64,000 nt of DNA from Paracoccaceae bacterium (GTDB taxonomy: Bacteria > Pseudomonadota > Alphaproteobacteria > Rhodobacterales > Rhodobacteraceae): assembly GCA_004153385.1 (NCBI GenBank), contig SDAL01000003.1, positions 186,001-250,000 of the forward strand. The letters run 5' to 3'. Position 1 is the first letter of the stretch. Every line of letters starts with the position of its first letter. The notes beneath the pieces were generated by a model. It searched no databases. It saw only the letters and a list, made by a program, of their open reading frames with translations, and was not told where the DNA came from. Below are positions 10,299 to 31,159 of the stretch, piece by piece. The position numbers were made by a program, and so were the translations under genes.

Positions 10299-11708
10299 TC
10301 AGCACTCAGGCAAGTTGACTGCGATGCCACCTGTCGACGTTTCCTTGTATTTCAGGTTCATGTCCTGGCCGGTTTCCAGCATGACCTGAATACAGTTATC
10401 AAGCGGCATGAAATGTTGACCATCGCCGCGCAGTGCAAGGCTGGCCGCAGAAACCGCCTTGATCGCGCCCAAGGCATTGCGTTCGATACACGGCACCTGA
10501 ACCAGTCCCGCCGCCGGATCACATGTCATCCCCAAATGATGCTCCAGCGCGATTTCAGCGGCGTTCTCGATTTGCGCGTTGTTACCGCCCAAAGCCGCAC
10601 ATAGCCCGCCTGCCGCCATAGCGGCCGCCGATCCGACCTCGCCCTGGCATCCGACCTCTGCTCCGGAAATCGAGGCGTTGCTTTTGATCAGCCCACCAAT
10701 GGCTGCAGCCACCAGCAACAGATCGCGGCACCCTTGCCGCGTGGCCCCGATGCAGTGATCGCGGTAATAGCGCAAGACCGCAGGCACCACGCCTGCCGCC
10801 CCGTTTGTGGGCGAGGTCACAACCCGTCCGCCGGCTGCGTTTTCCTCGTTCACAGCCATCGCATAGACGCTCATCCAGTCATTGGCCTGATGGGGCTGTG
10901 CCAGATTGTTGCCACGCTCGGCTTGTAGTTTTTCATAGATCGCCTTGGCCCGGCGCTTGACCATAAGGCCACCGGGCAAGATGCCCTCCTGCACCAGACC
11001 ACGGTCGATACATTCATCCATCGTGCTTAGGATTGTATCGATCTTGCTGGTCAACGCGCCGCCGTGGAGCACACGCTCGTTGGCGAATTTCATCTGGGCG
11101 ATGGTTTTTGCGGATGTCTCGCCCATCTGCAGCATTTCGCGCGCTGTGGCGAATGGATAGGGATATTGCGGACCGTCTGTCGCGGGCTTGCTGTCTTTGG
11201 GGGCAGCTTTCTGGGCCTCCAGCTCTGCGGCCGTCACGACAAACCCACCGCCGACAGAGTAATAGGTTTGCTGATAATAGGCATGACCGTTTTTGTCGTA
11301 AGCCGTCAAAACCAGCCCGTTTGCATGGCCTGCAAGCGGTGGGCCCCAATCAAACACAAGATCTTTGTCAGGGTCGAAATGCAGTGGCTCGAACCCCTCG
11401 GGGCGCACCACACCTTCGCGCCGGACCTCTTCCTCCAGCCGTTCGGCCTGATCGGGATCCAGCGTGTGGGGTAGCAGCCCGCACAGGCCCAAGATGACAG
11501 CGCGATCGGTTGCGTGGCCTTTGCCGGTGAAGGCAAGCGATCCGTGCAGGCTGGCCCCAAGGCGATACAGATCCCCTGCCCCGGGAATGCGCTCTACTCC
11601 GCCGCGCAGATCATCCAGAAACCGCCCTGCGGCGACCATCGGCCCCATGGTGTGCGAGGAAGACGGACCGATGCCGATCTTGAATATGTCGAATACAGAT
11701 AGGAACAT
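10299..11708 (-). CDS. sdaA: L-serine ammonia-lyase, iron-sulfur dependent, single-chain
   Basis: A 469-residue L-serine dehydratase converting serine to pyruvate and ammonia. It has the beta domain first ([22 protein letters not shown]) and the alpha domain after about residue 190, with [37 protein letters not shown] and [18 protein letters not shown], which supply the [4Fe-4S] cysteines. Its start abuts the glyA stop with no gap, so translation is probably coupled. In this operon it drains serine made by GlyA into central metabolism. Length matches the E. coli SdaA/SdaB type. Confidence 0.96.
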
Positions 11709-12977
11709 TCACGCACCATAAATCGGGAATGCGTCACAGATTTCGCGCACTTTGGCGCGCACATCCGCTTCGACATCGGGGTTGCCATCAGGATGATCGA
11801 CCAGCGCATCCACGACACGCAAGATAAGCGTGCCGATCGTTTCGAATTCGTCTTCGCGGAAACCGCGGGTGGTGCCTGCCGAGGTCCCCAGCCGGATGCC
11901 GGAGGTCACAAACGGTTTTTGCGGATCATTGGGGATGGCGTTTTTATTACATGTCAGCCCTGCCCGTTCCAGCGCAGCCTCTGCGGCCTTGCCGGTCACG
12001 CCTTTGGGCTGCAAATCGACCAGAACCATGTGACAATCGGTGCCGCCAGAGACGATGCCAAGACCGCCCACCATCAACACATCGGCCAAAGCGCGTGCGT
12101 TTTCGATGACCTGTCGTCCGTAATCGCCGAATTCCGGCAAAAGCGCCTCGCCGAAGGCCACGGCCTTTGCAGCGATCACATGCATCAACGGCCCGCCCTG
12201 ATTGCCCGGAAAGACGGCTGAATTGATCCGCTTTGCCATATCGGCGTCATTGGTCAGGATGATACCGCCCCGTGGGCCGCGCAGTGTTTTATGCGTGGTG
12301 GAGGTGACCACATGCGCATGCCTCATCGGATCGGGATAATGGCCCCCCGCGATCAGCCCTGCATAATGGGCCATATCCACCATCAGATAGGCGCCCACCT
12401 CGTCTGCAATCTGGCGGAACGCGGCAAAGTCCATTGCACGGGGATAAGCCGATGCACCCGCCACAATCAGTTTCGGCTGCGTCTCGATGGCTTGCTGGCG
12501 CAGCTTTTCCATATCGATCAGATGGGTTTCGTCATCGACCGTGTAGGAGACGACATCGAACCATTTGCCGGACATCGTCACAGAAGAGCCGTGTGTCAGA
12601 TGCCCGCCATGGGCCAAAGACAGGCCCATGATCCGGTCACCCGGCTCCAGCAGGGCCAGAAACACGGCCTGATTGGCCTGCGCGCCCGAATGCGGCTGAA
12701 CATTCGCAAATTCCGCGCCGAAAAGACGCTTCACACGGTCGATTGCCACGGCCTCGACCGTGTCCACGTGTTCGCAGCCGCCATAATAACGCCGCCCCAC
12801 ATAGCCTTCGGCATATTTATTGGTCAGCACGGAGCCTTGGGCCGCCATCACATCACTCGATACGATGTTTTCAGAAGCGATCAGCTCGATCTGGCTTTTC
12901 TGGCGCGTCAGTTCTGCGGCTACGGCACACGCAATCACGGCATCTGATATGCCGGTGTCGGGAGCACGGTCAAACAT
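11709..12977 (-). CDS. glyA: Serine hydroxymethyltransferase (sox-operon copy)
   Basis: A 422-residue PLP enzyme interconverting glycine plus 5,10-methylene-THF with serine plus THF. The PLP lysine lies in [26 protein letters not shown] and [15 protein letters not shown] are family signatures. It sits between soxG and sdaA with a 19-bp gap after soxG and an AAGGGA ribosome site. Placement indicates a dedicated catabolic role: it joins the glycine and the methylene-THF released by sarcosine oxidase. A separate housekeeping glyA probably exists elsewhere in the genome (inference). Confidence 0.96.
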
Positions 12978-19293: not shown

Positions 19294-20244
19294 ATGGCAT
19301 GGAATAGCACATCATATGAACCCCGTAATACGGTCCTTTTGGGAATCGCGGCAATTTTGGGCGCAGCGTTTCTGTTGTCGTTCTCGGACGCCCTGATCAA
19401 GGCGTTGGGCGCGCAATTCGGCCTGTGGCAGATTATCCTGATCCGATCAGCCGTGGCAGCGGTGGTTCTGGGGGCAGGTGTGCGGATCTATTTCGGACAA
19501 GGGCAGCTACGGGTGGAAAACGGGCGTTGGGTTTGGGCGCGCAGCCTGTGCCTGACCGCAATGTGGATGTGCTACTATTGCGCGCTGCCTTCGATGTCGC
19601 TGGCACTGGCGGCGGCGTGTTATTACACAACGCCGGTCTGGATGGCGTTGATATCACGTGTTGTCTGGGGCGAGCGGATCAGCCCGCAAGGCTGGGGCGC
19701 GATTGCACTGACGCTTCTGGGGGTGATCGCCATTGTGAACCCAGCCCCCGGGCAGATGACCTTTCATGTGTTGCTCCCGCTTGCAGCGGCTGTGTTCTAT
19801 GCGCTTGCTGGCATAGTCACCCACCGCCGTTGCCAAAACGAAACGGCCACCGCTATGGCGTTCAACCTCAACCTGTGTCTGTGCGCGGTGGCAGGTGTGA
19901 TGCTGGCTGGGCTGGCGCTGACAGGGATTGGCAACAACGGGTCGTTCGTGCTTTCGGTGTGGCCCGCGCTAACCCCGAAAGACTGGATGATTGCGGCAAT
20001 TCTGGGGGCGGTTCTTGCCGTGGTATCTGTGGCTGTGGCCTTTGCCTATCGGCAGGCACCGACCCAGATTGTGGGTGTGTGCGACACCTCCTACATGGGC
20101 TTTGCGGCCATCTGGGGTGTGACGATGTTCCATGAACCTTTGGAAATGCAACAGCTGGTCGGGCTTTTGCTGATCGGGCTTGGCGCGGTGTTGATCGGCT
20201 ACCGGCCCAAGCCGCGACAGTTTCCGCCGCATTTCGCAACCTGA
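19294..20244 (+). CDS. EamA/DMT family transporter (drug/metabolite exporter)
   Basis: A 316-residue inner-membrane protein with ten predicted helices in two EamA repeats (about 16-148 and 165-305). Typical features are an early helix with SFSDALIKALG, an FxxALPSMSLALAAACYYTTPVW segment in the first repeat, and PTQIVGVCDTSYMGFAAIWG with FHEPLEMQQLVGLLLI in the second. Relatives export amino acids, purine metabolites or drugs; the substrate cannot be told. Regulation by the divergent LysR protein is likely because the shared gap holds a perfect LysR box. Confidence 0.9.
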   Translation: MAWNSTSYEPRNTVLLGIAAILGAAFLLSFSDALIKALGAQFGLWQIILIRSAVAAVVLGAGVRIYFGQGQLRVENGRWVWARSLCLTAMWMCYYCALPSMSLALAAACYYTTPVWMALISRVVWGERISPQGWGAIALTLLGVIAIVNPAPGQMTFHVLLPLAAAVFYALAGIVTHRRCQNETATAMAFNLNLCLCAVAGVMLAGLALTGIGNNGSFVLSVWPALTPKDWMIAAILGAVLAVVSVAVAFAYRQAPTQIVGVCDTSYMGFAAIWGVTMFHEPLEMQQLVGLLLIGLGAVLIGYRPKPRQFPPHFAT

Positions 20245-20872: not shown

Positions 20873-21958
20873 TTGCATAAAGACGATACGCAACAATTTG
20901 CCTCTCGGCGCCCGCTCGGGCGTCCCGTCATGTGGCTTGGGTCAGGCGCGCTTTTTCTGGGGCTGACCGTTGCTGGCCTGTGGGCGGTCGCAAAGCTGTT
21001 TGGTGGCACATTGCCACATCTTGATCCACGGCTTTTGCAACCGCGCGCATTGGGGCTGATCGTGCTGTTTCTGGTGGTGTATTTTCTGGCAGACGGTTTG
21101 CGGCTGCATCTGGTTTTGCGTGCGCTGAAGGCGCCGGTACGGTTTGCACAGATCCTGCCGTTGGTGTTCATAAATATCCTGTTTTCAAATATCACGCCGC
21201 TGGCAACAGGCGGAGGGTTTGCGCAAGTCTGGTATCTGCAACGCCGCGATGTACCGGTGGGTCTGTCGGCTGCGGCCACCACCATCCGCACCATACTTGC
21301 GATGCTGGTGATTTTTGTCGCCGCACCTGCCTTCCAGCTTCTGGCCCCTGCCCGTCAGGTGGCGGGGATTTCCGGCACGGTCATTGAATCGATTGTTGTG
21401 TTCATCGTCCTGTATCTGGTGGGGTTTGTGGTGCTTTTGCTGCGCCCCGCATGGATGCTTGGCATGATAGAGGGGCTCTTGCGGCTGCTGTCGCGCCTGC
21501 ATGTTCTGGGGGCGGCACGCCGTGAGGCGATTTCAGATGCACTGAACCGTGCCGCGCAGGAATTTGCGCAAGGGTTCCGGCAGTTTCTGGCCGCGCCTTT
21601 GATGCTGTCAGGTGCAGCGCTTTTGTCTACCGTTATGTATCTGCTTACACTTTTCGCGATGCCAGCCCTGTTGATGAGCCTTCTGGGCATAGAGACCAAC
21701 TGGTTTTCGGTGATCGGCACGCTGTGCGTTGTGACATTCCTGATGTATTTCGCGCCAACACCCGGGGGGGCGGGCTTTTCCGAGCTGGCCTTCGCGGGCC
21801 TGATGTCGGGGCAGATGGCACCGGACCAGATGGTGTTGGTCATCTTTGCGTGGCGGTTTCTGACGATCTATCTGGGAATGGGGATCGGCGCCATCGTGTC
21901 GGTTTTCGCATTGCGCCCGCGCGCCCATGTGGCGGCGCCTGTGAAGGTGGACCGTTGA
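20873..21958 (+). CDS. Flippase-like integral membrane protein (lysylphosphatidylglycerol synthase TM region / UPF0104 family)
   Basis: About 361 residues, strongly hydrophobic, with roughly eight helices. The family signature is in ILFSNITPLATGGGFAQVWYL and the later FAPTPGGAGFSELAFAGL. Members (AglD2, the MprF N-domain, hopanoid or glycolipid translocases) move lipids or lipid-linked sugars across the membrane. The frame has no useful ATG near its true start. The best start is TTG at 20873, 5 nt after GGAGG, followed by HKDDTQQF. It overlaps the next gene by 1 bp (TGATG), so flippase and glycosyltransferase are co-translated. That suggests the flippase handles the lipid product of its neighbour (inference). 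Confidence 0.85.
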   Translation: MHKDDTQQFASRRPLGRPVMWLGSGALFLGLTVAGLWAVAKLFGGTLPHLDPRLLQPRALGLIVLFLVVYFLADGLRLHLVLRALKAPVRFAQILPLVFINILFSNITPLATGGGFAQVWYLQRRDVPVGLSAAATTIRTILAMLVIFVAAPAFQLLAPARQVAGISGTVIESIVVFIVLYLVGFVVLLLRPAWMLGMIEGLLRLLSRLHVLGAARREAISDALNRAAQEFAQGFRQFLAAPLMLSGAALLSTVMYLLTLFAMPALLMSLLGIETNWFSVIGTLCVVTFLMYFAPTPGGAGFSELAFAGLMSGQMAPDQMVLVIFAWRFLTIYLGMGIGAIVSVFALRPRAHVAAPVKVDR

Positions 21959-24204
21959 TGACCCGCCGCCGCTGGCTTTCTGTCTTTTTCTATACCAATC
22001 TTGCTGTGTTGTTGGCCGTTTTGGGCTATAAGGTTTATCTTTATGCTGCAGCCCCGGAGGCCAGCGCGCTGCTGGTGGAGCAGATCGAGCGGGTGGAGCG
22101 CGCGACCAAGGGCCGCGATACCCTATCGTTTGCCGTGGTGGGCGAGGCAAACAACTCCATCGGTGTGTTCGAGAAAAACATCATCCCGCGGGTCAATGCC
22201 TCCGATGCGGATTTTCTGGTCTCTGCAGGCAATCTGCTAAGCGGGGGGGGCGAGGATAAATACCGCGCCATTCTGGGCACATTATCGCATTTGCAAAAGC
22301 CCTACCTGCTGACATTTGCCGAACACGAGCTGGACGAGTTCGGGGGCAGCCGGTTCTACCGGCGTTTCGGACCGCATTTCTATTCGATAGACTTGGATGC
22401 CGTGCGACTGGTGTTTCTTGATTCCACAGGGCGCACCCCGACCGATTGGCAGGAACGCTGGCTGCGCGATATCTTGCAAGCCCCCACACGCCAGCCCGTG
22501 ATCGTATTCACCGGCCACCCGCTGATAGACCCGGTTCCCGAGACGCTGTTTGCCCCTGATCGCGGGGCATGGTCAACAGGGGAAGGCCGTTTGCGGCTGT
22601 TGGGTCTGCTGCGTGATCTGGGCGTGGATATGGTGATCTCTGCGGGGGCCGCGACCTATTCCGATCAAACTGTAGACGGGATCCGGCATATCGTTACCGG
22701 CGGTGCGGGCGGCTTCGTGCTGAATGACGATACCAGCTTTTATCACTATCTGCAGGTGGCGGTCCGGCCCGAAGGGCTCAGCGTGCGGATGCAGCATGTG
22801 GACACGGCCCCAACGATCTGGGCCCGCCGGATCGAGGGGCTGTGGTTTTATGTCTATTCGCTGTTTTACGTGGGTATCTGGAATTTTCTGCTGATATTCT
22901 CGGCGCTGGTGATTGTGGCGGTCTATCTGTTCAACCGCCTGTTTCGCGAACGTCAGTTCTATCCCAACTACGAGATGCCAGAGCCAGTGGATCTGGGCCG
23001 CCCGCTGCGTATCGCCATGTTCACCAACACCTATCTGCCCTTCATCGGCGGTGTGCCGATATCTGTCGACCGGCTGAAACGCGGGCTAGAGGCGCAGGGC
23101 CACGAGGTTTTGCTGATCTGCCCCAGCTACGGTGCCGATACGCCCGATCCGTGCGTGGTGCGTGTGCCGACGCTGTGGCGTTCAGGAATGATGATCCGCA
23201 TCGCCAATCCATGGCATCCGCGCATCAAACGCAGGCTGCGCGCATTCTCCCCTGATATCGTGCATCTGCATCATCCCTATTGGCTGGGAACGCTTGGGTT
23301 GCGCATGGCGCGGGCGCTGAAGGTTCCGGCGGTGTTCACCTATCATACCCGGCTTGAGCAGTTCGCCCATGTCGTGCCGCTTCCGGGTGCGCTGTTTCGC
23401 AATGTGGTGGCCCATTCGATCATCAGCCGGTTTGCCAACCGCTGCGATCAGGTGATCGTACCCACGCCGGTCACGCGCGATTATATCCGCTTGATCGGGG
23501 TTCAGGTGCCTGTCAGTGTGCAGCCTACCGGCGTGGATACAAAGCGTTATCGCGGCCATCCACCCGAAATGCTGGCCGCCTTGCGCCAGACGCTCAACCC
23601 GGATGGGCGGCTGCTGCTGGTGACCGTGGCGCGTCTGTCTGCGGAAAAAAACATCGGTTTCATTCTGCGCGCCATGGCTGCGCTGAAAGAACGCAATGCC
23701 CCACCCTTTCGCCTGATCGTTCTGGGTGACGGCGACGAGCGTGCCAATCTGGAGGCGATGATCACAAAGCTGGGGCTGACAGACGATGTGAACCTTCTGG
23801 GCGATATCCCGTCTGATGATGTGCCTGCGCATTTATGTATCAGCGATGTGTTTGTATTTGCTTCGGCGGCCGAAACCCAAGGCATGGTTGTGCTGGAGGC
23901 GATGGCCGCGGGCCTGCCTGCGGTTGCTGTCAATTCAAGCGGAATCGACGCGTTCGTAGAAAACCGCAAAACAGGGTATGTGACACCGGATTCCCTTACA
24001 ATCTGGACAGATGCGCTGCACGGGCTTTTAAGCGATGCGACCCACCGCAAAGATATGGGGGCGGCTGCAATGACTGCTGCTGCCAGCTATTCGGTCGAGG
24101 TTTTCTCCACCGAGATTGCCGCGATCTATGGCACCCAGATCGCGGCCTTTGCGGCCCGCGTACGGGCCCCCAAAGCCACGCACCAAGAGCCAGAAAAGCC
24201 CTGA
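21958..24204 (+). CDS. Membrane-anchored fusion: degenerate metallophosphoesterase-like domain + GT4 glycosyltransferase
   Basis: 748 residues, unusual architecture. TM1 spans about 10-30 after an Arg-rich N-terminus (MTRRRW), a calcineurin/purple-acid-phosphatase-like domain about 50-285, TM2 about 300-325, and a GT4 glycosyltransferase about 348-735. The GT4 part has FTNTYLPFIGGVPISVDRL, HLHHPYWLG, TYHTRLEQFAH, VARLSAEKN and ETQGMVVLEAMAAG, close to diacylglycerol glucosyltransferases. Positive-inside signals place the GT cytoplasmic and the phosphoesterase-like part periplasmic. That domain keeps the fold pattern (DFLVSAGN, FAEHEL, VIVFTGHP, RHIVTGGAGG) but lacks most metal ligands: E63-A-N65 replaces DxH, N92 replaces D, E122 replaces N, and the GHxH site reads AGAA (229-232). 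The domain is probably non-catalytic (inference). Confidence 0.85.
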   Translation: MTRRRWLSVFFYTNLAVLLAVLGYKVYLYAAAPEASALLVEQIERVERATKGRDTLSFAVVGEANNSIGVFEKNIIPRVNASDADFLVSAGNLLSGGGEDKYRAILGTLSHLQKPYLLTFAEHELDEFGGSRFYRRFGPHFYSIDLDAVRLVFLDSTGRTPTDWQERWLRDILQAPTRQPVIVFTGHPLIDPVPETLFAPDRGAWSTGEGRLRLLGLLRDLGVDMVISAGAATYSDQTVDGIRHIVTGGAGGFVLNDDTSFYHYLQVAVRPEGLSVRMQHVDTAPTIWARRIEGLWFYVYSLFYVGIWNFLLIFSALVIVAVYLFNRLFRERQFYPNYEMPEPVDLGRPLRIAMFTNTYLPFIGGVPISVDRLKRGLEAQGHEVLLICPSYGADTPDPCVVRVPTLWRSGMMIRIANPWHPRIKRRLRAFSPDIVHLHHPYWLGTLGLRMARALKVPAVFTYHTRLEQFAHVVPLPGALFRNVVAHSIISRFANRCDQVIVPTPVTRDYIRLIGVQVPVSVQPTGVDTKRYRGHPPEMLAALRQTLNPDGRLLLVTVARLSAEKNIGFILRAMAALKERNAPPFRLIVLGDGDERANLEAMITKLGLTDDVNLLGDIPSDDVPAHLCISDVFVFASAAETQGMVVLEAMAAGLPAVAVNSSGIDAFVENRKTGYVTPDSLTIWTDALHGLLSDATHRKDMGAAAMTAAASYSVEVFSTEIAAIYGTQIAAFAARVRAPKATHQEPEKP

Positions 24205-24413: not shown

Positions 24414-24433
24414 GTGAGTGAACGATCACTCAC
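24414..24433. promoter_or_regulatory. TetR operator (perfect 20-bp inverted repeat)
   Basis: GTGAGTGA-ACGA-TCACTCAC is a perfect 8+4+8 palindrome ending 14 bp before the ATG of the TetR gene (24448), in an AT-rich promoter region. Size, symmetry and position are those of a TetR-family operator, so autorepression of the tetR-acyltransferase operon is likely. A GTG start at 24418 would put the operator inside the coding region, which argues for the ATG at 24448. Confidence 0.7.
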
Positions 24434-24447
24434 ATTGCGAGCGACCT

Positions 24448-25050
24448 ATGAAAAAAACAACGCAATCTTCAACGGAACGGCGCGCCCTGATCGAGCGTAT
24501 GGCCTTGCGGCTTTTTGCCGAGCGTGGATATGCGGCCGTATCGGTGCGCGATCTGGCGCAGGCCTGCGGGATCGGTGAAAGCGCGCTGTACCGGCACATG
24601 TCGTCAAAGGACGAACTGGCGGTACGGGTGTTCCGCGAGGCCTACATCGGCTTTGCCAGCGAACTGATGGAGGCGGTCGATCAGCAGGCCCCTGTGGCTG
24701 AAGTTCTCTGTGCCTACTTGGAAGTGATGCTGAATGCGTTTGATCGCGACCCCGATCTGGTGCAATTCCTGCTGGGCCGCCAGCACGATATTCTGGCGCA
24801 GGCCATTACCCCTGATGATATCACACCGCTGATCGTTGTGCGCGACACCTTGGCACGTGCCCAACAGCGCGGCGAGATTGTGTCCGCCAACCTGGATCTG
24901 AGCACCGCGATGGTTCTGGGGGCGGCCTTTCAACCGCTGACATTTTCCCGTTTCGGGCGCATTCAGGCGCCCGCAATCCAGCTTTTGCGACCGCTGCTGG
25001 CCGGTATCTTGCGGATGCTGGGTGCCAAACTACCGGAGGATCTGAAATGA
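24448..25050 (+). CDS. TetR/AcrR family transcriptional regulator
   Basis: About 200 residues. The N-terminal HTH spans roughly 12-58 (MALRLFAERGYAAVSVRDLAQ, then GIGESALYRHMSSKDELAVRVF), followed by an all-helical ligand domain with ILRML near the end. It overlaps the next gene by 4 bp (ATGA), so it is co-expressed with the LplT-PlsC-Aas protein and probably controls it. TetR proteins beside acyl-CoA or acyl-ACP enzymes often sense fatty acyl ligands; that is inference here. A longer GTG start at 24418 exists but falls in the operator. Confidence 0.92.
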   Translation: MKKTTQSSTERRALIERMALRLFAERGYAAVSVRDLAQACGIGESALYRHMSSKDELAVRVFREAYIGFASELMEAVDQQAPVAEVLCAYLEVMLNAFDRDPDLVQFLLGRQHDILAQAITPDDITPLIVVRDTLARAQQRGEIVSANLDLSTAMVLGAAFQPLTFSRFGRIQAPAIQLLRPLLAGILRMLGAKLPEDLK

Positions 25051-28000
25051 GATTGCAGACGAACTACGATCCCGCGCGCACGGGAATTGTGCTGACCGCC
25101 ATGCTTGGCGCGCTCAACGACAACCTCATCAAGGCCGCCATTATCGTGTTTGCCGCCCTGACCGCCCCGCCGGATCTGGCGGCAAGCGTGGGGCTGATGG
25201 CGGGCGGGCTTTTGGTCCTGCCGTTTGTGATTTTCTCCGGTATCGCAGGGGCTGCTGCGGATAAATACGAAAAAGCCACATTGATCCGTTATGTAAAATA
25301 TACAGAACTCGCGCTGGCCGCTCTGGCCACACTGGCGATGGTCTGGGCCAATATCCCGGCCCTGTTGGGGGTTGTGTTCCTGATGGGCACACAATCGGCG
25401 TTTTTCGGCCCGCTGAAGCTTGGCTGGCTGCCCGAACGCCTTCGCCCCGACCAGTTGAACGCCACAAACGGCTGGATGGAAACCCTGACCTTTCTGGGCA
25501 TTCTGGGTGGCACAGTCGCGGGCGGACTGCTGTCCGGACCGGACACTCTGATCTTTGCGGGGATCGCGGCCATCGTTATTGCCCTGATCGGTATCGTCAC
25601 CGCCCATACGCTGCCCTTGGGCCAGCCTGCCGATCCGCAGGGGCATGTGACGCTTAATCCGGTGGCAGGCGGGCGGCTGGCCATGCGCAGTCTTTGGGCG
25701 GACCGGGGGGCACGGCGCGCAGCGTTGCTGTCATCTTGGTTTTGGTCAATAGGCACGGTTTATCTATCCACATTGCCGGCACATCTGCGCGCCGTTCTGA
25801 GTGTGGACGAAGTTGCCGTGACGCTGGTCATGGGGCTTTTCGCGCTTGGCATCGGCTCGGGTGTCGCGACGGCGGTGCATTGCCTCAAAGGGCGGATCAG
25901 CGCGGCGCTTTTGCTCCCTGCGACCCTGATGATTATGGTCACAACTCTCGGGGTTTGGATCGGGTTCGATCACCTGCCCGCGGCCACAGGCATGGCGGGG
26001 CTGCTGGCCACAGGACCCGGCCTTTTCTTGTGTGTGTGTCTGTTTGGCGTGGCCTTCGGTGGTGGCCTGTTCGCCGTCCCCCTGAAATCGCTTATCCAGT
26101 CGCGGGCCGCCCCCGAGGCACGGGCCCGCACGATGGCGGGGCTTGGCTTGCTCAGTTCGGGCATGATTTTCATCACATCCGCTGTTGTGGCGCTCGCGGT
26201 TCTGGCGGGGTTGCGCACCGAGACGGTATATCTTCTGGTCAGCATCAGCACGATCGGCGCGCTGATCGGTGTTTGCCGCTTTTTCCCCCAAGATGCGCTG
26301 CGCTCTGTGGCCCGCGTCATTATCACCCGCTGGTGCCGTGTCGAGGTGAACGGCGCACAGCATCTGGCAACCCAAGGGCCGGTTGTGTTCATCGCCAACC
26401 ACAGTTCGCTGCTTGACGGGCCGCTTTTGCAATCGTTGATGGTGCGCGACACGGCTGTGGCCGTGAACAGTATCTGGGCGGAAGGACCGATCCTCAAGCG
26501 CATTGCGAAATTGTGCAATATTCATGCAATCGATCCGCAAAACCCGATGGCGGCCAAGAACCTCGCCCAGATGGTGCAGGACGGTGGCGCGGCCCTGGTC
26601 TTTCCGGAGGGCCGTGTATCGACCCATGGCGGGCTGATGAAAGTCTATCCCGGCACGGCATGGATGGTGGATATGGCCGATGCGCCGGTCGTGCGGATCA
26701 CGGTGGAGGGTGCTGAGGCGTCAATCTTCAACCGTCCCATTACGGGCCTTAAACGGCGCTGGTTCCCGAAAGTTCGCGTGACCGTGGCAGCCCCGCAAAA
26801 GCTCGACATCAGCCCCGAGCTGCGTGGCGGTGCCCGCCGGACTGCGGCCACCCGCGCCGTGCAAACCATGCTGGAGACGGGACGCTTCGAGGCGATGATG
26901 CAGGCCCCGTCGATCCCCGATCTTTATGCCCGCAACGCACACCTGCTGGAGCGTGGCCGGATGGCAATCACCGATCCCTTGGGCAACACCCTGTCCCATC
27001 GCAAGCTGGCGGTGAGTGCGGCGCTGTTCTCCGGCCTGCTGCAATCGCGCACCAAACCGGGCGAGCGTGTGGGTGTCTTGTTGCCCGGCGTGTCGGCGGT
27101 CGCCGTCATCTTGATGGGGCTGTGGCGGGCCGGACGTGTCCCTGCGATCCTGAACCCCACATTGGGCGCGGGGCCGATGCTATCGGCGGTGGAAACAGGC
27201 ACCCTGACCCATATCCTGTCTAGCCGCGACTTCATCGAAAAGGCGGAGCTGCAGGAGGTCGTTGACCATCTGGTGGCCAATGGCGTGCGGTTCATCTGGA
27301 CCGATGATCTGAAGGCCGAAATCACCCCACGTATGAAATTTGCGGCCCTGTTCAGGGCCCGCCGTGCCCGTGACGTGGCGCTGTCGTGCGAAGATCCGGC
27401 AGTGGTGCTGTTCACCTCGGGTACGGAAGGGGCTCCCAAAGGCGTGGTGCTGTCGCATGGCAACCTGATCGGGAACATCGCCCAGCTGCGTGCGCGCACC
27501 GATTTCAGTTCCCGCGACCGGATCCTGTCGGCCATGCCGGTGTTTCACAGCCTCGGGTTGACGGCGGGCATGTTGTTGCCGCTGGTGACGGGGGCACCGT
27601 TGATGATCTACCCCTCGCCGCTGCACTATAAAATCGTGCCGGAAATGGCCTACGCCCATCAGGCCACGCTGATCTTTGGCACCGATACGTTCCTGTCGGG
27701 CTGGGCGCGCAAGGCGGATGCGTATGATTTCAGCACTGTGCGGGCCGCGATTGCAGGGGCCGAGCCTGTCAAACAGGCCACCCGCGAAATCTGGTCGCAA
27801 AAGTTCGGGGTACGCATTCTGGAAGGGTATGGCGCGACCGAAGCGGGTCCCGTGATCGCGCTCAACACGCCTATGGAAAACCGTGCAGGCACCGTGGGGC
27901 GGGCACTGACCGCAATAGACATCCGCCTGCAGGACATTCCGGGCTTGCAGGGCAAACGTCTGTGGGTGCACGGGCCGAATGTGATGGCAGGCTATCTGCT

Positions 28001-28427
28001 ACCCGGTGATCACGGCAAGCTTACCCCCGTGACCGATGGTTGGTATGATACCGGCGATGTGGTTGAAATCGACGAAGATGGCTATATCCGGATCGTGGGC
28101 CGCGCCAAACGCTTTGCCAAGATCGGTGGCGAGATGGTGTCGCTGACTGCGTGCGAGGATCTGGCCGCGCAATGCTGGCCCGATGCGCGTGTGGGGGCGG
28201 TTATCATGCCCGATGCCCGCAAAGGCGAGCGGATCGTGGTTGTCACAGACGCCCCACAGGCCACGCGGGACGATCTGTCGGCGGCAGCGCAGCAAAAAGG
28301 CATGGCCGAGATCATGGTTCCGGCACAGGTTGTGGTGCTGACACATGTCCCGCTGCTGGCCTCTGGCAAGATAGATTATCCGGCGGTAAGCGCGCAGTTG
28401 AAAGAGCAGATACAGGCTGTCGCATAA
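25047..28427 (+). CDS. Triple fusion MFS (LplT-like) + PlsC acyltransferase + acyl-ACP synthetase (Aas-like)
   Basis: 1126 residues in three parts. Residues about 1-410 form an MFS domain like the lysophospholipid flippase LplT (starts YDPARTGIVLTAMLGALNDNLIKAA). About 425-610 is a PlsC acyltransferase with NHSSLLDG (H452-x4-D457) and FPEGR near 519. About 640-1126 is an AMP-forming acyl-ACP/CoA synthetase with LFTSGTEGAPKG near 789, YGATEAGP, YDTGD near 1000 and a C-terminal GKIDYP lysine. In E. coli, LplT and Aas together import lysophosphatidylethanolamine and re-acylate it; here all steps are on one chain. It is co-transcribed with the TetR regulator. Confidence 0.92.
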   Translation: MRLQTNYDPARTGIVLTAMLGALNDNLIKAAIIVFAALTAPPDLAASVGLMAGGLLVLPFVIFSGIAGAAADKYEKATLIRYVKYTELALAALATLAMVWANIPALLGVVFLMGTQSAFFGPLKLGWLPERLRPDQLNATNGWMETLTFLGILGGTVAGGLLSGPDTLIFAGIAAIVIALIGIVTAHTLPLGQPADPQGHVTLNPVAGGRLAMRSLWADRGARRAALLSSWFWSIGTVYLSTLPAHLRAVLSVDEVAVTLVMGLFALGIGSGVATAVHCLKGRISAALLLPATLMIMVTTLGVWIGFDHLPAATGMAGLLATGPGLFLCVCLFGVAFGGGLFAVPLKSLIQSRAAPEARARTMAGLGLLSSGMIFITSAVVALAVLAGLRTETVYLLVSISTIGALIGVCRFFPQDALRSVARVIITRWCRVEVNGAQHLATQGPVVFIANHSSLLDGPLLQSLMVRDTAVAVNSIWAEGPILKRIAKLCNIHAIDPQNPMAAKNLAQMVQDGGAALVFPEGRVSTHGGLMKVYPGTAWMVDMADAPVVRITVEGAEASIFNRPITGLKRRWFPKVRVTVAAPQKLDISPELRGGARRTAATRAVQTMLETGRFEAMMQAPSIPDLYARNAHLLERGRMAITDPLGNTLSHRKLAVSAALFSGLLQSRTKPGERVGVLLPGVSAVAVILMGLWRAGRVPAILNPTLGAGPMLSAVETGTLTHILSSRDFIEKAELQEVVDHLVANGVRFIWTDDLKAEITPRMKFAALFRARRARDVALSCEDPAVVLFTSGTEGAPKGVVLSHGNLIGNIAQLRARTDFSSRDRILSAMPVFHSLGLTAGMLLPLVTGAPLMIYPSPLHYKIVPEMAYAHQATLIFGTDTFLSGWARKADAYDFSTVRAAIAGAEPVKQATREIWSQKFGVRILEGYGATEAGPVIALNTPMENRAGTVGRALTAIDIRLQDIPGLQGKRLWVHGPNVMAGYLLPGDHGKLTPVTDGWYDTGDVVEIDEDGYIRIVGRAKRFAKIGGEMVSLTACEDLAAQCWPDARVGAVIMPDARKGERIVVVTDAPQATRDDLSAAAQQKGMAEIMVPAQVVVLTHVPLLASGKIDYPAVSAQLKEQIQAVA

Positions 28428-28475: not shown

Positions 28476-28598
28476 AGTTTCAGGGCCAAGTCACCGGATT
28501 GGAGCTATTTTTTCCAGCCGGTGACGTAACTCTTTACAAAGATCATAAAGTATTACTTAATGAAGTTCGGTTGGAGGACCGAATTTAGGGAGGACAGT

Positions 28599-29555
28599 AT
28601 GAAACTTATGAAAACGCTGCTTGTCAGCGCCGCTATTGCTATGCCTGCGGCCGCTTTTGCGGAGAATGAAACGGTCGGCTTTTCGCAGATCGGATCTGAA
28701 TCGGGCTGGCGCGCAGCAGAGACATCCGTGACGAAGGCAGACGCCAAAGAACGCGGAATCACTCTGAAATTTGCCGACGCACAGCAAAAACAGGAAAACC
28801 AGATCAAGGCACTGCGCGGGTTTATCGCCCAAGGTGTTGATGCGATCCTGCTGGCGCCGGTTGTGGCCACCGGCTGGGACGAGGTTCTGGGCGAGGCCAA
28901 GGACGCCGACATTCCGGTGGTCTTGCTCGATCGCAAGGTCGATGCCTCTGATGATCTGTATCTGACAGCCGTCACCTCCGACACCGTCCACGAGGGCACG
29001 GTCGCGGGCGACTGGCTGAAGGACGCCGTGGGCGATGCACAGTGTAATGTCGTGGAACTGCAAGGTACGACCGGCGCATCCGTGACGATCGACCGTAAAA
29101 AGGGCTTTGCAGATGCCATCGCCTCGGCTGATAACATCACCATCGTGCGCAGCCAGACCGGTGACTTTACCCGCGCACAAGGCAAGATCGTGATGGAGAG
29201 CTTCATCAAGGCCGAAGGTGGTGGGTCGGATATCTGCGCCCTATACGCCCATAACGACGATATGGCCTTGGGCGCGATCCAGGCCATCAAGGAAGCTGGC
29301 CTGAAACCGGGCGAGGATATCAAGATCGTCTCTATCGATTCCGTGCCCGACATGCATCTGGCGATTTCCAAGGGCGAGGCAAACGCCACCGTGGAACTGA
29401 CCCCCGATATGGCCGGCCCTGCATTCGACGCGCTGGAGGCCTATTGGGCCGATGGCACCCAGCCCGAGAAGTGGATTCAAACGGACTCCACCCTGTTCAC
29501 GCAAGACGACGATAACGAAGCCGCCTACGAGAACAAGAAAGCCTTGGGATACTGA
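28599..29555 (+). CDS. ytfQ: Galactofuranose-type ABC transporter, periplasmic substrate-binding protein
   Basis: A 318-residue binding protein strongly resembling E. coli YtfQ: VGFSQIGSESGWRAAET, QQKQENQIKALRGF, LAPVVATGWDEVL, NVVELQGTTGASV, RSQTGDFTRAQGK and YAHNDDMALGAIQAIKEAGL all match block by block. A Sec signal peptide (KTLLVSAAIAMPAAAFA) is cut near residue 21. I start at the ATG at 28599, which follows GGGAGGAC; an upstream in-frame start would add residues before the signal peptide. First gene of ytfQ-ytfR-ytfT-yjfF. The E. coli orthologue binds galactofuranose and galactopyranose. Confidence 0.93.
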   Translation: MKLMKTLLVSAAIAMPAAAFAENETVGFSQIGSESGWRAAETSVTKADAKERGITLKFADAQQKQENQIKALRGFIAQGVDAILLAPVVATGWDEVLGEAKDADIPVVLLDRKVDASDDLYLTAVTSDTVHEGTVAGDWLKDAVGDAQCNVVELQGTTGASVTIDRKKGFADAIASADNITIVRSQTGDFTRAQGKIVMESFIKAEGGGSDICALYAHNDDMALGAIQAIKEAGLKPGEDIKIVSIDSVPDMHLAISKGEANATVELTPDMAGPAFDALEAYWADGTQPEKWIQTDSTLFTQDDDNEAAYENKKALGY

Positions 29556-29584
29556 GCCCGTTTGATCGGGCGCGACCTGCGCCC
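29556..29584 (+). terminator. Intercistronic hairpin pair after ytfQ
   Basis: Two overlapping hairpins follow the ytfQ stop: GCCCG (29556-29560) with CGGGC (29567-29571), or GGGCGC (29568-29573) with GCGCCC (29579-29584). Such structures between binding-protein and ATPase genes usually stabilise the first cistron or attenuate read-through, giving excess binding protein. Confidence 0.45.
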
Positions 29585-29647
29585 GGTCAGCCCGCTTTTG
29601 CGCGGCCCGGCCAGACCGTGGTTTTCATTTCCAGTGGGGGGGCATTC

Positions 29648-31159
29648 ATGCAATCCGATCCAAAACCCGTCTTGCATGCGACGGGGATTTCGAAATTTTT
29701 TCCGGGCGTGATTGCGCTCGATGATGTGGAGCTGCAGCTTTATCCCGGAGAGGTGCACGCGCTTCTGGGCGAGAATGGCGCAGGAAAATCCACCTTGATC
29801 AAATGCCTGACCGGCGCGTATCCGCGCGATGCGGGCGTGATCATGCTCGATGGGGCCGAAATCAATCCCAAGGACCCGCTCTCCAGTCAGGCCGCAGGCA
29901 TTGGCACGGTCTATCAGGAGGTCAATCTGCTTTCCAATCTGAGCGTGGCCGAAAACCTGTTTCTGGGCCGCCAGCCTCGCCGGTTCGGCATGATTGACCA
30001 GCGCCGGATGCTGCGCGATTCAAAGGACATACTGGCGCAATACGGCCTGTCGATCGACCCCGCACAGCTTTTGTCGAGCTATTCCATCGCGATCCAGCAG
30101 ATTGTGGCGATTGCGCGTGCGGTCGAGTTGTCGGGCAAGGTATTGATTTTGGACGAACCGACCGCCAGCCTTGACCGCGAGGAAGTGGAGCTGATGTTTT
30201 CGGTCATCCGGCGTCTGACCGCGCGCGGGCTGGCAGTGGTTTTCATTACCCATTTCCTCGATCAGGTTCTGGCGATCTGCGACCGCGCAACGATCTTGCG
30301 GAACGGCTGCGTGGTGGGCACGCGGAAACTGGCAGAGGTTACCCAGACAGAGATCGTGACCCTGATGCTGGGCCGGCAGCTGGAGGCCGCGACCCATCAC
30401 CACGAACGCCGCGAGACGGGCGATGTTTTGCTGTCATTGCGCGGGTTTGGCAAACGGGGCGCGATCGAACCGTTCGATCTGGACATTCACACAGGCGAAG
30501 TGGTCGGTATGGCGGGGCTTTTGGGGTCTGGTCGCACCGAAACCTGTAATGCGATTTTCGGCGCCCAACCCGCAGATCAGGGCGAGGCACGCCTGCGCGG
30601 CTCACCCTTGCGCATTTCCACCCCGCGCGAGGCCATCCGTAACCGCATCGCGCTATGTCCCGAAGACCGTAAAACCGAAGGCATCGTGGGCGATCTGTCC
30701 GTGCGCGAGAATATCATCTTGTCGCTTCAGGCGCGTCAGGGTTGGTACCGGCCCCTGCCCCGTGCGAAAATAGAGGAGATCGCGCAAAGTTATGTAAAAG
30801 CGCTCGATATCCGTCTGGCCAATCTTGATACACCGATCAGGCTGTTGTCGGGCGGAAACCAGCAAAAGGCGCTTTTGGCGCGCTGGCTGGCCACCGAGCC
30901 GCAGCTGCTGATTTTGGACGAACCCACCCGAGGAATCGATGTCGGTGCACATGCCGAAATCATTGCCCTGATCGAGCGGCTGCGCACGCAAGGTATGGCG
31001 CTTTTGGTCGCCTCCTCCGAGATGGAGGAGCTTGTCGCCTATTCCACCAAGATTGTGGTGCTGCGCGACCGCCGTCAGGTGGGCGCGTTGACGGGCGATG
31101 ATATCTCTCCCAACGCCATTATCCGTGCCATCGCCGCCGAAGAGGAGCCACGCGCATGA
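29648..31159 (+). CDS. ytfR: Galactofuranose-type ABC transporter, ATP-binding protein (double ABC)
   Basis: About 503 residues with two tandem ABC domains, as in RbsA, MglA and YtfR. The first has Walker A GENGAGKSTLIKCLTG, Walker B ILDEPTASLD and an SYSIAIQQIVAIARAV signature region. The second has a degenerate P-loop (GLLGSGRTE), the signature LSGGNQQKALLARWL and LDEPTRGID. The ATG at 29648 follows a run of seven G; a start 10 codons earlier has no ribosome site. It lies downstream of ytfQ and overlaps ytfT by 4 bp. Confidence 0.94.
   Translation: MQSDPKPVLHATGISKFFPGVIALDDVELQLYPGEVHALLGENGAGKSTLIKCLTGAYPRDAGVIMLDGAEINPKDPLSSQAAGIGTVYQEVNLLSNLSVAENLFLGRQPRRFGMIDQRRMLRDSKDILAQYGLSIDPAQLLSSYSIAIQQIVAIARAVELSGKVLILDEPTASLDREEVELMFSVIRRLTARGLAVVFITHFLDQVLAICDRATILRNGCVVGTRKLAEVTQTEIVTLMLGRQLEAATHHHERRETGDVLLSLRGFGKRGAIEPFDLDIHTGEVVGMAGLLGSGRTETCNAIFGAQPADQGEARLRGSPLRISTPREAIRNRIALCPEDRKTEGIVGDLSVRENIILSLQARQGWYRPLPRAKIEEIAQSYVKALDIRLANLDTPIRLLSGGNQQKALLARWLATEPQLLILDEPTRGIDVGAHAEIIALIERLRTQGMALLVASSEMEELVAYSTKIVVLRDRRQVGALTGDDISPNAIIRAIAAEEEPRA

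Follow-up and report, generated by a model that had tools for sequence, protein, structure and literature searches.

The window considered here is a 64,000-nucleotide stretch from a Paracoccaceae bacterium (GenBank assembly GCA_004153385.1, contig SDAL01000003.1, positions 186,001 to 250,000 of the forward strand), in which two overlapping genes may form a module for making and moving a membrane glycolipid. The larger is a single open frame of 748 codons at 21958-24204 (+), and encodes, in order along the chain, a transmembrane helix (TM1), a domain with the fold of GpdQ and the purple acid phosphatases, a second transmembrane helix (TM2), and an intact family 4 glycosyltransferase (GT4) domain. 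The smaller, directly upstream, encodes a flippase-like protein. The parts of the pair are as follows, numbered along the window.

20873..21958, + strand: flippase-like gene, LPG_synthase_TM, about 361 amino acids (PF03706, E 3.6e-29)
21958..24204, + strand: pseudo-phosphoesterase/GT4 fusion protein, 748 amino acids
21964..22050, + strand: TM1, residues 3-31 (full-length model)
22057..22815, + strand: pseudo-metallophosphoesterase domain, predicted to be periplasmic, residues 34-286 (Pfam, profile alignments, structure model, Foldseek)
22816..22947, + strand: juxtamembrane helix, residues 287-304, plus TM2, residues 307-330 (full-length model)
23002..24165, + strand: GT4 domain, predicted to be cytoplasmic, residues 349-736 (Pfam, full-length model, fold matches, NCBIfam, invariant residues)

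The fusion architecture is solid. An earlier interpretation made without database searches (the sequence-only reading) had described one 748-residue chain of TM1, phosphoesterase-like domain, TM2, and GT4, and both the frame and the residues it quoted (E63-A-N65, N92, A121-E-H-E, AGAA at 229-232, and RHIVTGGAGG) are present, with Pfam matching both halves. In the whole protein, the Metallophos model PF00149 scores 24.2 bits against a gathering score of 21.5, and two GT4 models match with E values of 1.6e-35 and 7.1e-34. The domain taken alone reaches 27.1 bits, again above the 21.5 that marks the metallophosphoesterase fold, and PF00149 recognizes it in 35 of 43 family members (E up to 10; best 8.8e-8).

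Structure prediction agrees with this assignment. For residues 34-292, an AlphaFold model that drew on 43 family sequences has a mean predicted local distance difference test score (pLDDT) of 84 and a predicted template modeling score (pTM) of 0.88, and its best solved-structure matches by E value in Foldseek are rat purple acid phosphatase, Rv0805, and GpdQ, with query TM scores of 0.67-0.71 for GpdQ and about 0.55-0.71 for GpdQ, Rv0805, and the purple acid phosphatases together. Also in the Foldseek list are GAP50 (3tgh) and numerous chains of Vps29. At the profile level the domain matches GpdQ and purple acid phosphatases (E about 1e-5), a better result than with the domain sequence alone, for which phmmer returned no matches among PDB sequences. 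The PF00149-type fold that had been proposed for this half is thus borne out. A full-length model (pLDDT 84, pTM 0.60) places helices at 3-31, 287-304, and 307-330, and its GT4 fold is closest to BshA and MshA, with PimA also among the matches. Based on the model's two membrane helices and an arginine-rich N-terminus, the phosphoesterase-like domain is most likely periplasmic and the glycosyltransferase cytoplasmic.

In fold and profile the domain resembles GpdQ, Rv0805, and the purple acid phosphatases, but its metal ligands have been replaced. We tallied the seven metal-ligand positions in 57 aligned rows, 50 of them distinct, as some genomes were met in two collections. None of the seven is kept in 56 rows, and the remaining row (L040) keeps D63 alone; the protein of this locus keeps 0/7, and so lacks the motifs of an active metallophosphoesterase (DxH, GD, GNH, the motif-IV His, and GHxH). 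Position 63 is Asn in 34 rows, Glu in 19, Gln in three, and Asp in one; position 65 is Asn in 56 and Ser in one; position 92 is Asn in all 57; position 122 is never Asn; position 186 is Gly in 52 and Ala in five; and His is absent from positions 230 and 232 throughout. The ligand loss described in the sequence-only reading is therefore a family trait, and no homologue with intact metal ligands occurs among these rows. That the degeneracy is private to one strain, or an alignment error, is ruled out by its presence in all 57.

One detail of the earlier account has to change, namely that H123 and H187 survive as ligand histidines. When the profiles are aligned, 'FVGHP' falls opposite 'LMHSP' of bean purple acid phosphatase and 'FMHHP' of GpdQ. 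We take the first His of these two to be the metal ligand, which puts the motif-IV ligand position at G186 and not at H187. H187 instead pairs with the residue that follows the ligand His in GpdQ and purple acid phosphatase, and is kept in 24 rows of a 41-row alignment (A5), while position 123, presumably that of the GNH histidine and not of a metal ligand, is Asn in 28 of the 41. The domain is a predicted pseudo-phosphoesterase, its metal center gone, and the former active-site loops now read as follows.

22141..22161, + strand: loop I, residues 62-68, G-E-A-N-N-S-I in place of GDxH; N65 in 56/57 rows, N66 and S67 in 57/57
22222..22242, + strand: loop II, residues 89-95, SAGN in place of xxGD; N92 in 57/57
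22312..22332, + strand: loop III, residues 119-125, G/A-x-N/H-E in place of GNHD/E; E124 in 57/57
22507..22524, + strand: loop IV, residues 184-189, G186 at the ligand His position; P188 invariant in A5
22636..22650, + strand: loop V, residues 227-231, SAG or SAN in place of the SGH of GHxH; no His at 230 or 232
22693..22713, + strand: loop VI, residues 246-252, VTGGAGG; T247, G248, G249, G251, and G252 invariant in 41 rows

These loops are the best conserved part of the domain's core. The mean frequency of the top residue is 0.84 at 39 former active-site loop positions versus 0.61 at 171 other core positions (Mann-Whitney p 3e-7), and N66, S67, N92, E124, T247, and H263 are invariant in 57 rows, with N65 in 56. 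The domain as a whole is slightly less conserved than the glycosyltransferase half (0.62 vs 0.68), and its ratio of nonsynonymous to synonymous substitution rates (dN/dS) is, like that of the glycosyltransferase half, low, at 0.05-0.19 in 16 hand-chosen pairs of relatives, five of which have dS above 1; one very close pair gives a glycosyltransferase dN/dS of 0.81 on almost no synonymous change. Loop conservation, low dN/dS, and the invariant residues together indicate that the loops were rebuilt under selection rather than left to decay, and the residues conserved in the rebuilt loops are Asn, Ser, Glu, Thr, and Gly. That the metal ligands are gone would fit a loss of function, leaving the domain as a mere anchor or spacer with no ligand, but loops that outrank the rest of the core and a dN/dS this low make such an outcome very unlikely. 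The invariant residues could alternatively belong to a domain that is still an enzyme, metal-free or with a changed mechanism. No enzyme of this fold is known to us to work in either way, and at the seven ligand positions nothing survives beyond D63 in one of 57 rows, so we regard continued catalysis as highly improbable. Because the metal-binding residues are lost yet the domain is strongly conserved, it would more plausibly be a sensing or docking part than a second enzyme.

The GT4 half is intact. H463, R559, K564, E639, and E647, which we take to be the GT4 catalytic and donor-site residues, are invariant in 41/41 rows and supply the E-x7-E motif and the donor-site Arg and Lys of the family. 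Two NCBIfam models, MGlcDAGSynMgs (NF049988) and GlcN_PG_synth (NF053787), match all 21 members scanned and have the lowest best E-values over those members (1.5e-64 and 2e-43); for the 748-residue protein, the one member whose own ranking is known, they rank first and second. The alpha-monoglucosyldiacylglycerol synthase (Mgs) model NF049988 spans the full glycosyltransferase length, but the match is limited to that part of the fusion and scores 183 bits against an equivalog cut-off of 400, so the protein is not assigned as a monoglucosyldiacylglycerol synthase; nor is it assigned as the N-acetylglucosaminyl-phosphatidylglycerol (GlcNAc-PG) synthase GpgS, with NF053787 at 118-120 bits against 480. 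The model ranks nevertheless support, as probable, the earlier proposal of a glycolipid synthase: the glycosyltransferase half is probably one, with a glycerolipid as acceptor, the family scores pointing most likely to diacylglycerol or phosphatidylglycerol, and a lipid is the likely substrate. Some Halomonas relatives contain glucosyl-phosphatidylglycerol as a lipid; the literature searched held nothing relevant on this lipid in halophiles. The acceptor could instead be something other than a lipid, such as a polysaccharide, in which case the flippase would move a sugar linked to polyprenyl. All members are also matched by several polysaccharide GT4 models, and 10 of 39 loci have an ExoD homologue (Pfam confirms three of them). 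This seems unlikely to us, since the two models with the lowest E values are lipid-acceptor synthases and no other polysaccharide gene appears among nine genes scanned in the window.

The upstream gene ties this synthase to a candidate exporter. Its product scores 82 bits with TIGR00374 (cut-off 43) and 28.9 bits with GlcN_PG_flip, far below that model's cut-off of 320. The TTG start at 20873 was chosen for the GGAG upstream and is uncertain; the end is clear, as the flippase TGA (21956-21958) gives its A to the ATG of the fusion gene, a one-base overlap. A flippase homologue lies directly upstream of the fusion in 27/36 loci and is present in the fetched DNA of 40/59, this locus included, although these and the neighbor counts below are rough because the flanks are of unequal length and some genomes are represented by more than one locus. 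The flippase-less rows sit at three places of an unresolved fork in the tree and may have a single origin.

Coupling of this kind raises the possibility that the dead domain serves as a scaffold for protein docking, which would keep the flippase or some other envelope protein beside the transferase. Vps29 and GAP50, which share its fold class, are non-catalytic, pseudo-members of the fold with protein-docking roles; they are eukaryotic, are not fused to a transferase, and match the domain more weakly than GpdQ does, but their place in the Foldseek list lends the idea some support, as does the flippase homologue at 40 of the 59 loci. Further, 16 positions mark a flippase-less clade of 12 rows, and these fall more often in the domain (9/253) than in the glycosyltransferase (3/380; Fisher p 0.016). 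Those 12 rows are one clade, however, so that shared descent confounds the enrichment, and a second group without the flippase (five rows) retains the flippase-type residue in all five at 10 of the 16 positions. The domain also persists in genomes without the flippase, and within its core it is the former active-site loops that show the higher conservation. We consider docking possible but somewhat doubtful.

The explanation that we tentatively prefer, while giving it slightly less than even credence, is that the fusion and the flippase form a two-gene membrane glycolipid module in which the fusion acts as synthase, and that its pseudo-phosphoesterase pocket reads a headgroup or gates hand-over. 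The cytoplasmic GT4 domain would transfer a sugar from a nucleotide sugar to an inner-leaflet lipid, and the MprF/GpgF-type flippase of the overlapping gene would carry the product to the outer leaflet. The periplasmic pocket would then bind the outer-leaflet headgroup and report its level through TM2 to the transferase, or alternatively would gate the hand-over of product to the flippase. A ligand for the dead domain is favored, again cautiously, because the loops are conserved and the domain survives without the flippase, and ligand binding and docking may both be true. The most specific form of this idea, a transmembrane feedback enzyme whose periplasmic degenerate domain is a lipid-headgroup receptor setting the rate of the fused glycolipid synthase through TM2, is on the speculative side and somewhat unlikely as stated.

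Several observations count against this explanation. The full-length pTM of 0.60 makes the relative placing of the domains unsure. The stretch after TM2 is more acidic than basic (mean K+R 2.3 vs D+E 4.7 over 41 rows), which leaves the topology not firmly shown and dependent mainly on the arginine-rich N-terminus and the requirement of GT4 enzymes for cytoplasmic sugar nucleotides. Both lipid-synthase scores are below half of their equivalog cut-offs, so the acceptor may be a different molecule. The case for a pocket is built on loop positions, from which the pocket-facing side chains are inferred. Finally, no flippase of this type was found in the fetched DNA of 19/59 loci, all outside Rhodobacterales, although one of these (L048) has too little upstream DNA to tell, and when 12 flippase-less genomes were searched whole, 11 had no homologue and one had a 19-bit match. 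Coupling to this particular flippase is thus not a universal role of the fusion.

The closest known relative of the module as a whole may be GpgSDF, the GlcNAc-PG synthase, deacetylase, and flippase of Pseudomonas aeruginosa. There, gpgSDF is a predicted operon whose heterologous expression makes GlcNAc-PG and glucosaminyl-phosphatidylglycerol (GlcN-PG), and GpgS is predicted to be cytoplasmic with a GT4 domain only (Table 2, PMC12713373). The locus here shares with it a GT4 synthase encoded beside a UPF0104-type predicted flippase, in that a GT4 gene is adjacent to an LPG_synthase_TM gene, but it differs in having no adjacent deacetylase (the genes flanking the pair are EamA, 19294-20244, and TetR, 24418-25050) and in scoring far under the equivalog cut-off.

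For the regulatory role, the nearest parallel is one of working and not of descent. YejM/PbgA has a periplasmic domain of a different fold from the phosphoesterase-like domain, and another paper reportedly finds it to be a metalloenzyme (PMC7576196). A fusion locus of Halomonas gemina (L047) has, near the fusion gene, a gene for a DUF3413 plus Sulfatase protein (10930-12930, +), presumably the make-up of YejM. YejM is an inner-membrane protein whose binding of lipopolysaccharide controls the level of LpxC through LapB, so that a lipid-binding membrane protein sets the level of a cytosolic lipid-synthesis enzyme (PMC9356133); it acts via LapB and FtsH, and not by fusion to the enzyme.

Of the sequence-only reading, the fold, ligand loss, two membrane helices, and probable glycolipid synthase are supported, and a kinship with PlcP is not. 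The domain's profile finds GpdQ and purple acid phosphatases and gave no match to an LpxH-like phosphoesterase (locus L166) that resembles PlcP, no certified PlcP being among the sequences compared. That gene is separate, has intact motifs, and is convergent near a stand-alone GT4 relative (L166, 3966-7344), an arrangement that we take to resemble PlcP-Agt. In phosphorus-starved marine bacteria, the phospholipase PlcP and the glycolipid glycosyltransferase Agt are used together (PMC4796936); they differ from the fusion in being two separate proteins with an active phosphoesterase.

Beyond the pair, the surroundings contain further membrane genes. Downstream at 24418-28427 (+), the TetR regulator is followed by an MFS-acyltransferase-AMP ligase protein of 1126 residues, another membrane-lipid gene, which matches acyl-ACP--phospholipid O-acyltransferase models, and at 28560-31159 (+) lies a galactofuranose-type ABC transporter (YtfQ above cut-off, YtfR at 792 of 850 bits). 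Across the 39 fetched loci, a Na/Ca exchanger homologue occurs in 13 and CorA in eight (L006, L036, and other Rhodobacterales), alongside the 10 with ExoD, and L036 also has TrkH and PhoD-like genes; the Na/Ca exchanger, ExoD, CorA, TrkH, and PhoD-like neighbors look as if they belong to an ion or alkaline stress island. A VTT-domain homologue is found in the fetched stretch of eight of the 39 loci (L043, L045, L047, L048, L087, L088, L091, and L092; confirmed by Pfam in two examples). All eight lack the flippase, and the VTT-domain protein may stand in for it. A stand-alone GT4 relative (L137) has a VTT-like gene alongside, judged by eye.

The fusion is widespread but unevenly so. Counting full-length-scoring relatives, it is carried by 2/16 genomes of the same genus as this DNA (among 61 searched), 6/394 genomes of the same family (within Rhodobacterales), and 7/398 genomes of a phylum-wide sample. 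In another class it is found in 19/151 genomes of one family (f74) and 81/121 of a second (f78; 86 counting weak matches), with 4/274 in the class of f78. One genus of f78 has it in 103/120 genomes, 100 of them in frames of at least 741 amino acids and three in shorter frames (one split). The fusion is thus common in one genus of another class and rarer in Rhodobacterales. This class would be Gammaproteobacteria, because the rows of f74 fall together in the tree with rows named as Halomonas, Thioalkalivibrio, and Wenzhouxiangella, and f74 itself, by its grouping with Halomonas, would be Halomonadaceae. Named hosts in a 22-locus contig scan also include Salipiger, Roseovarius, Paracoccus, and Ruegeria; the scan relied on two peptide patterns, and one of these contains the degenerate motif and is blind to intact forms.

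Part of this distribution is on plasmids. Copies occur in 33 plasmid records, 30 of them Pseudosulfitobacter, and the Sulfitobacter faviae copy is flanked by conjugation genes on a plasmid typed conjugative; the phage records searched gave no match. All 19 Rhodobacterales rows fall on one side of a branch of the unrooted tree (support 100/100), and their distribution suits one transfer followed by plasmid spread. One genome has two fusion-gene copies of equal score about 9 kb apart (G888:C1:2186454-2196327). We also searched 249 genomes of the phylum with a TM2-plus-glycosyltransferase profile (E limit 1e-40, at most six candidates scored per genome listed). Among the candidates scored, five fused proteins reach 721-791 bits, while the next GT4s score 291 or less and align from model position 50 onward, after TM2. 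This gap suggests that this glycosyltransferase branch carried the dead domain wherever it has been seen, and no active fused form was found among close kin within the Pseudomonadota sampled. Nine weak matches from outside the family (L003, L013, L056, and L103-L108) all keep GD and GHxH; among them, L103 has GEHD, L105 has GNRD, and L104, L107, and L108 lack the His of DxH.

Both halves of the protein come from known families, and what appears new is that a uniformly dead phosphoesterase domain is joined to a lipid-type GT4 and accompanied by a coupled flippase. Plasmid records label the fusion proteins simply 'glycosyltransferase', and in the open-access literature, which is not the whole literature, we found nothing relevant on a GT4/dead-phosphoesterase fusion or on a bacterial pseudo-phosphoesterase. 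Added here to the sequence-only reading are the flippase-type gene that overlaps the fusion, the wide occurrence beyond Rhodobacterales, and the conserved, rebuilt pocket loops. If the domain reads the outer leaflet, the fusion would be a compact, testable example of balancing lipid synthesis across a membrane, and a true transmembrane feedback enzyme would be the one-chain equivalent of the YejM-LapB-LpxC circuit, which is made up of several proteins. If the domain instead docks the flippase, it would show a physical joining of glycolipid synthesis and export. Its presence in most genomes of one genus provides many natural hosts for lipidomics.

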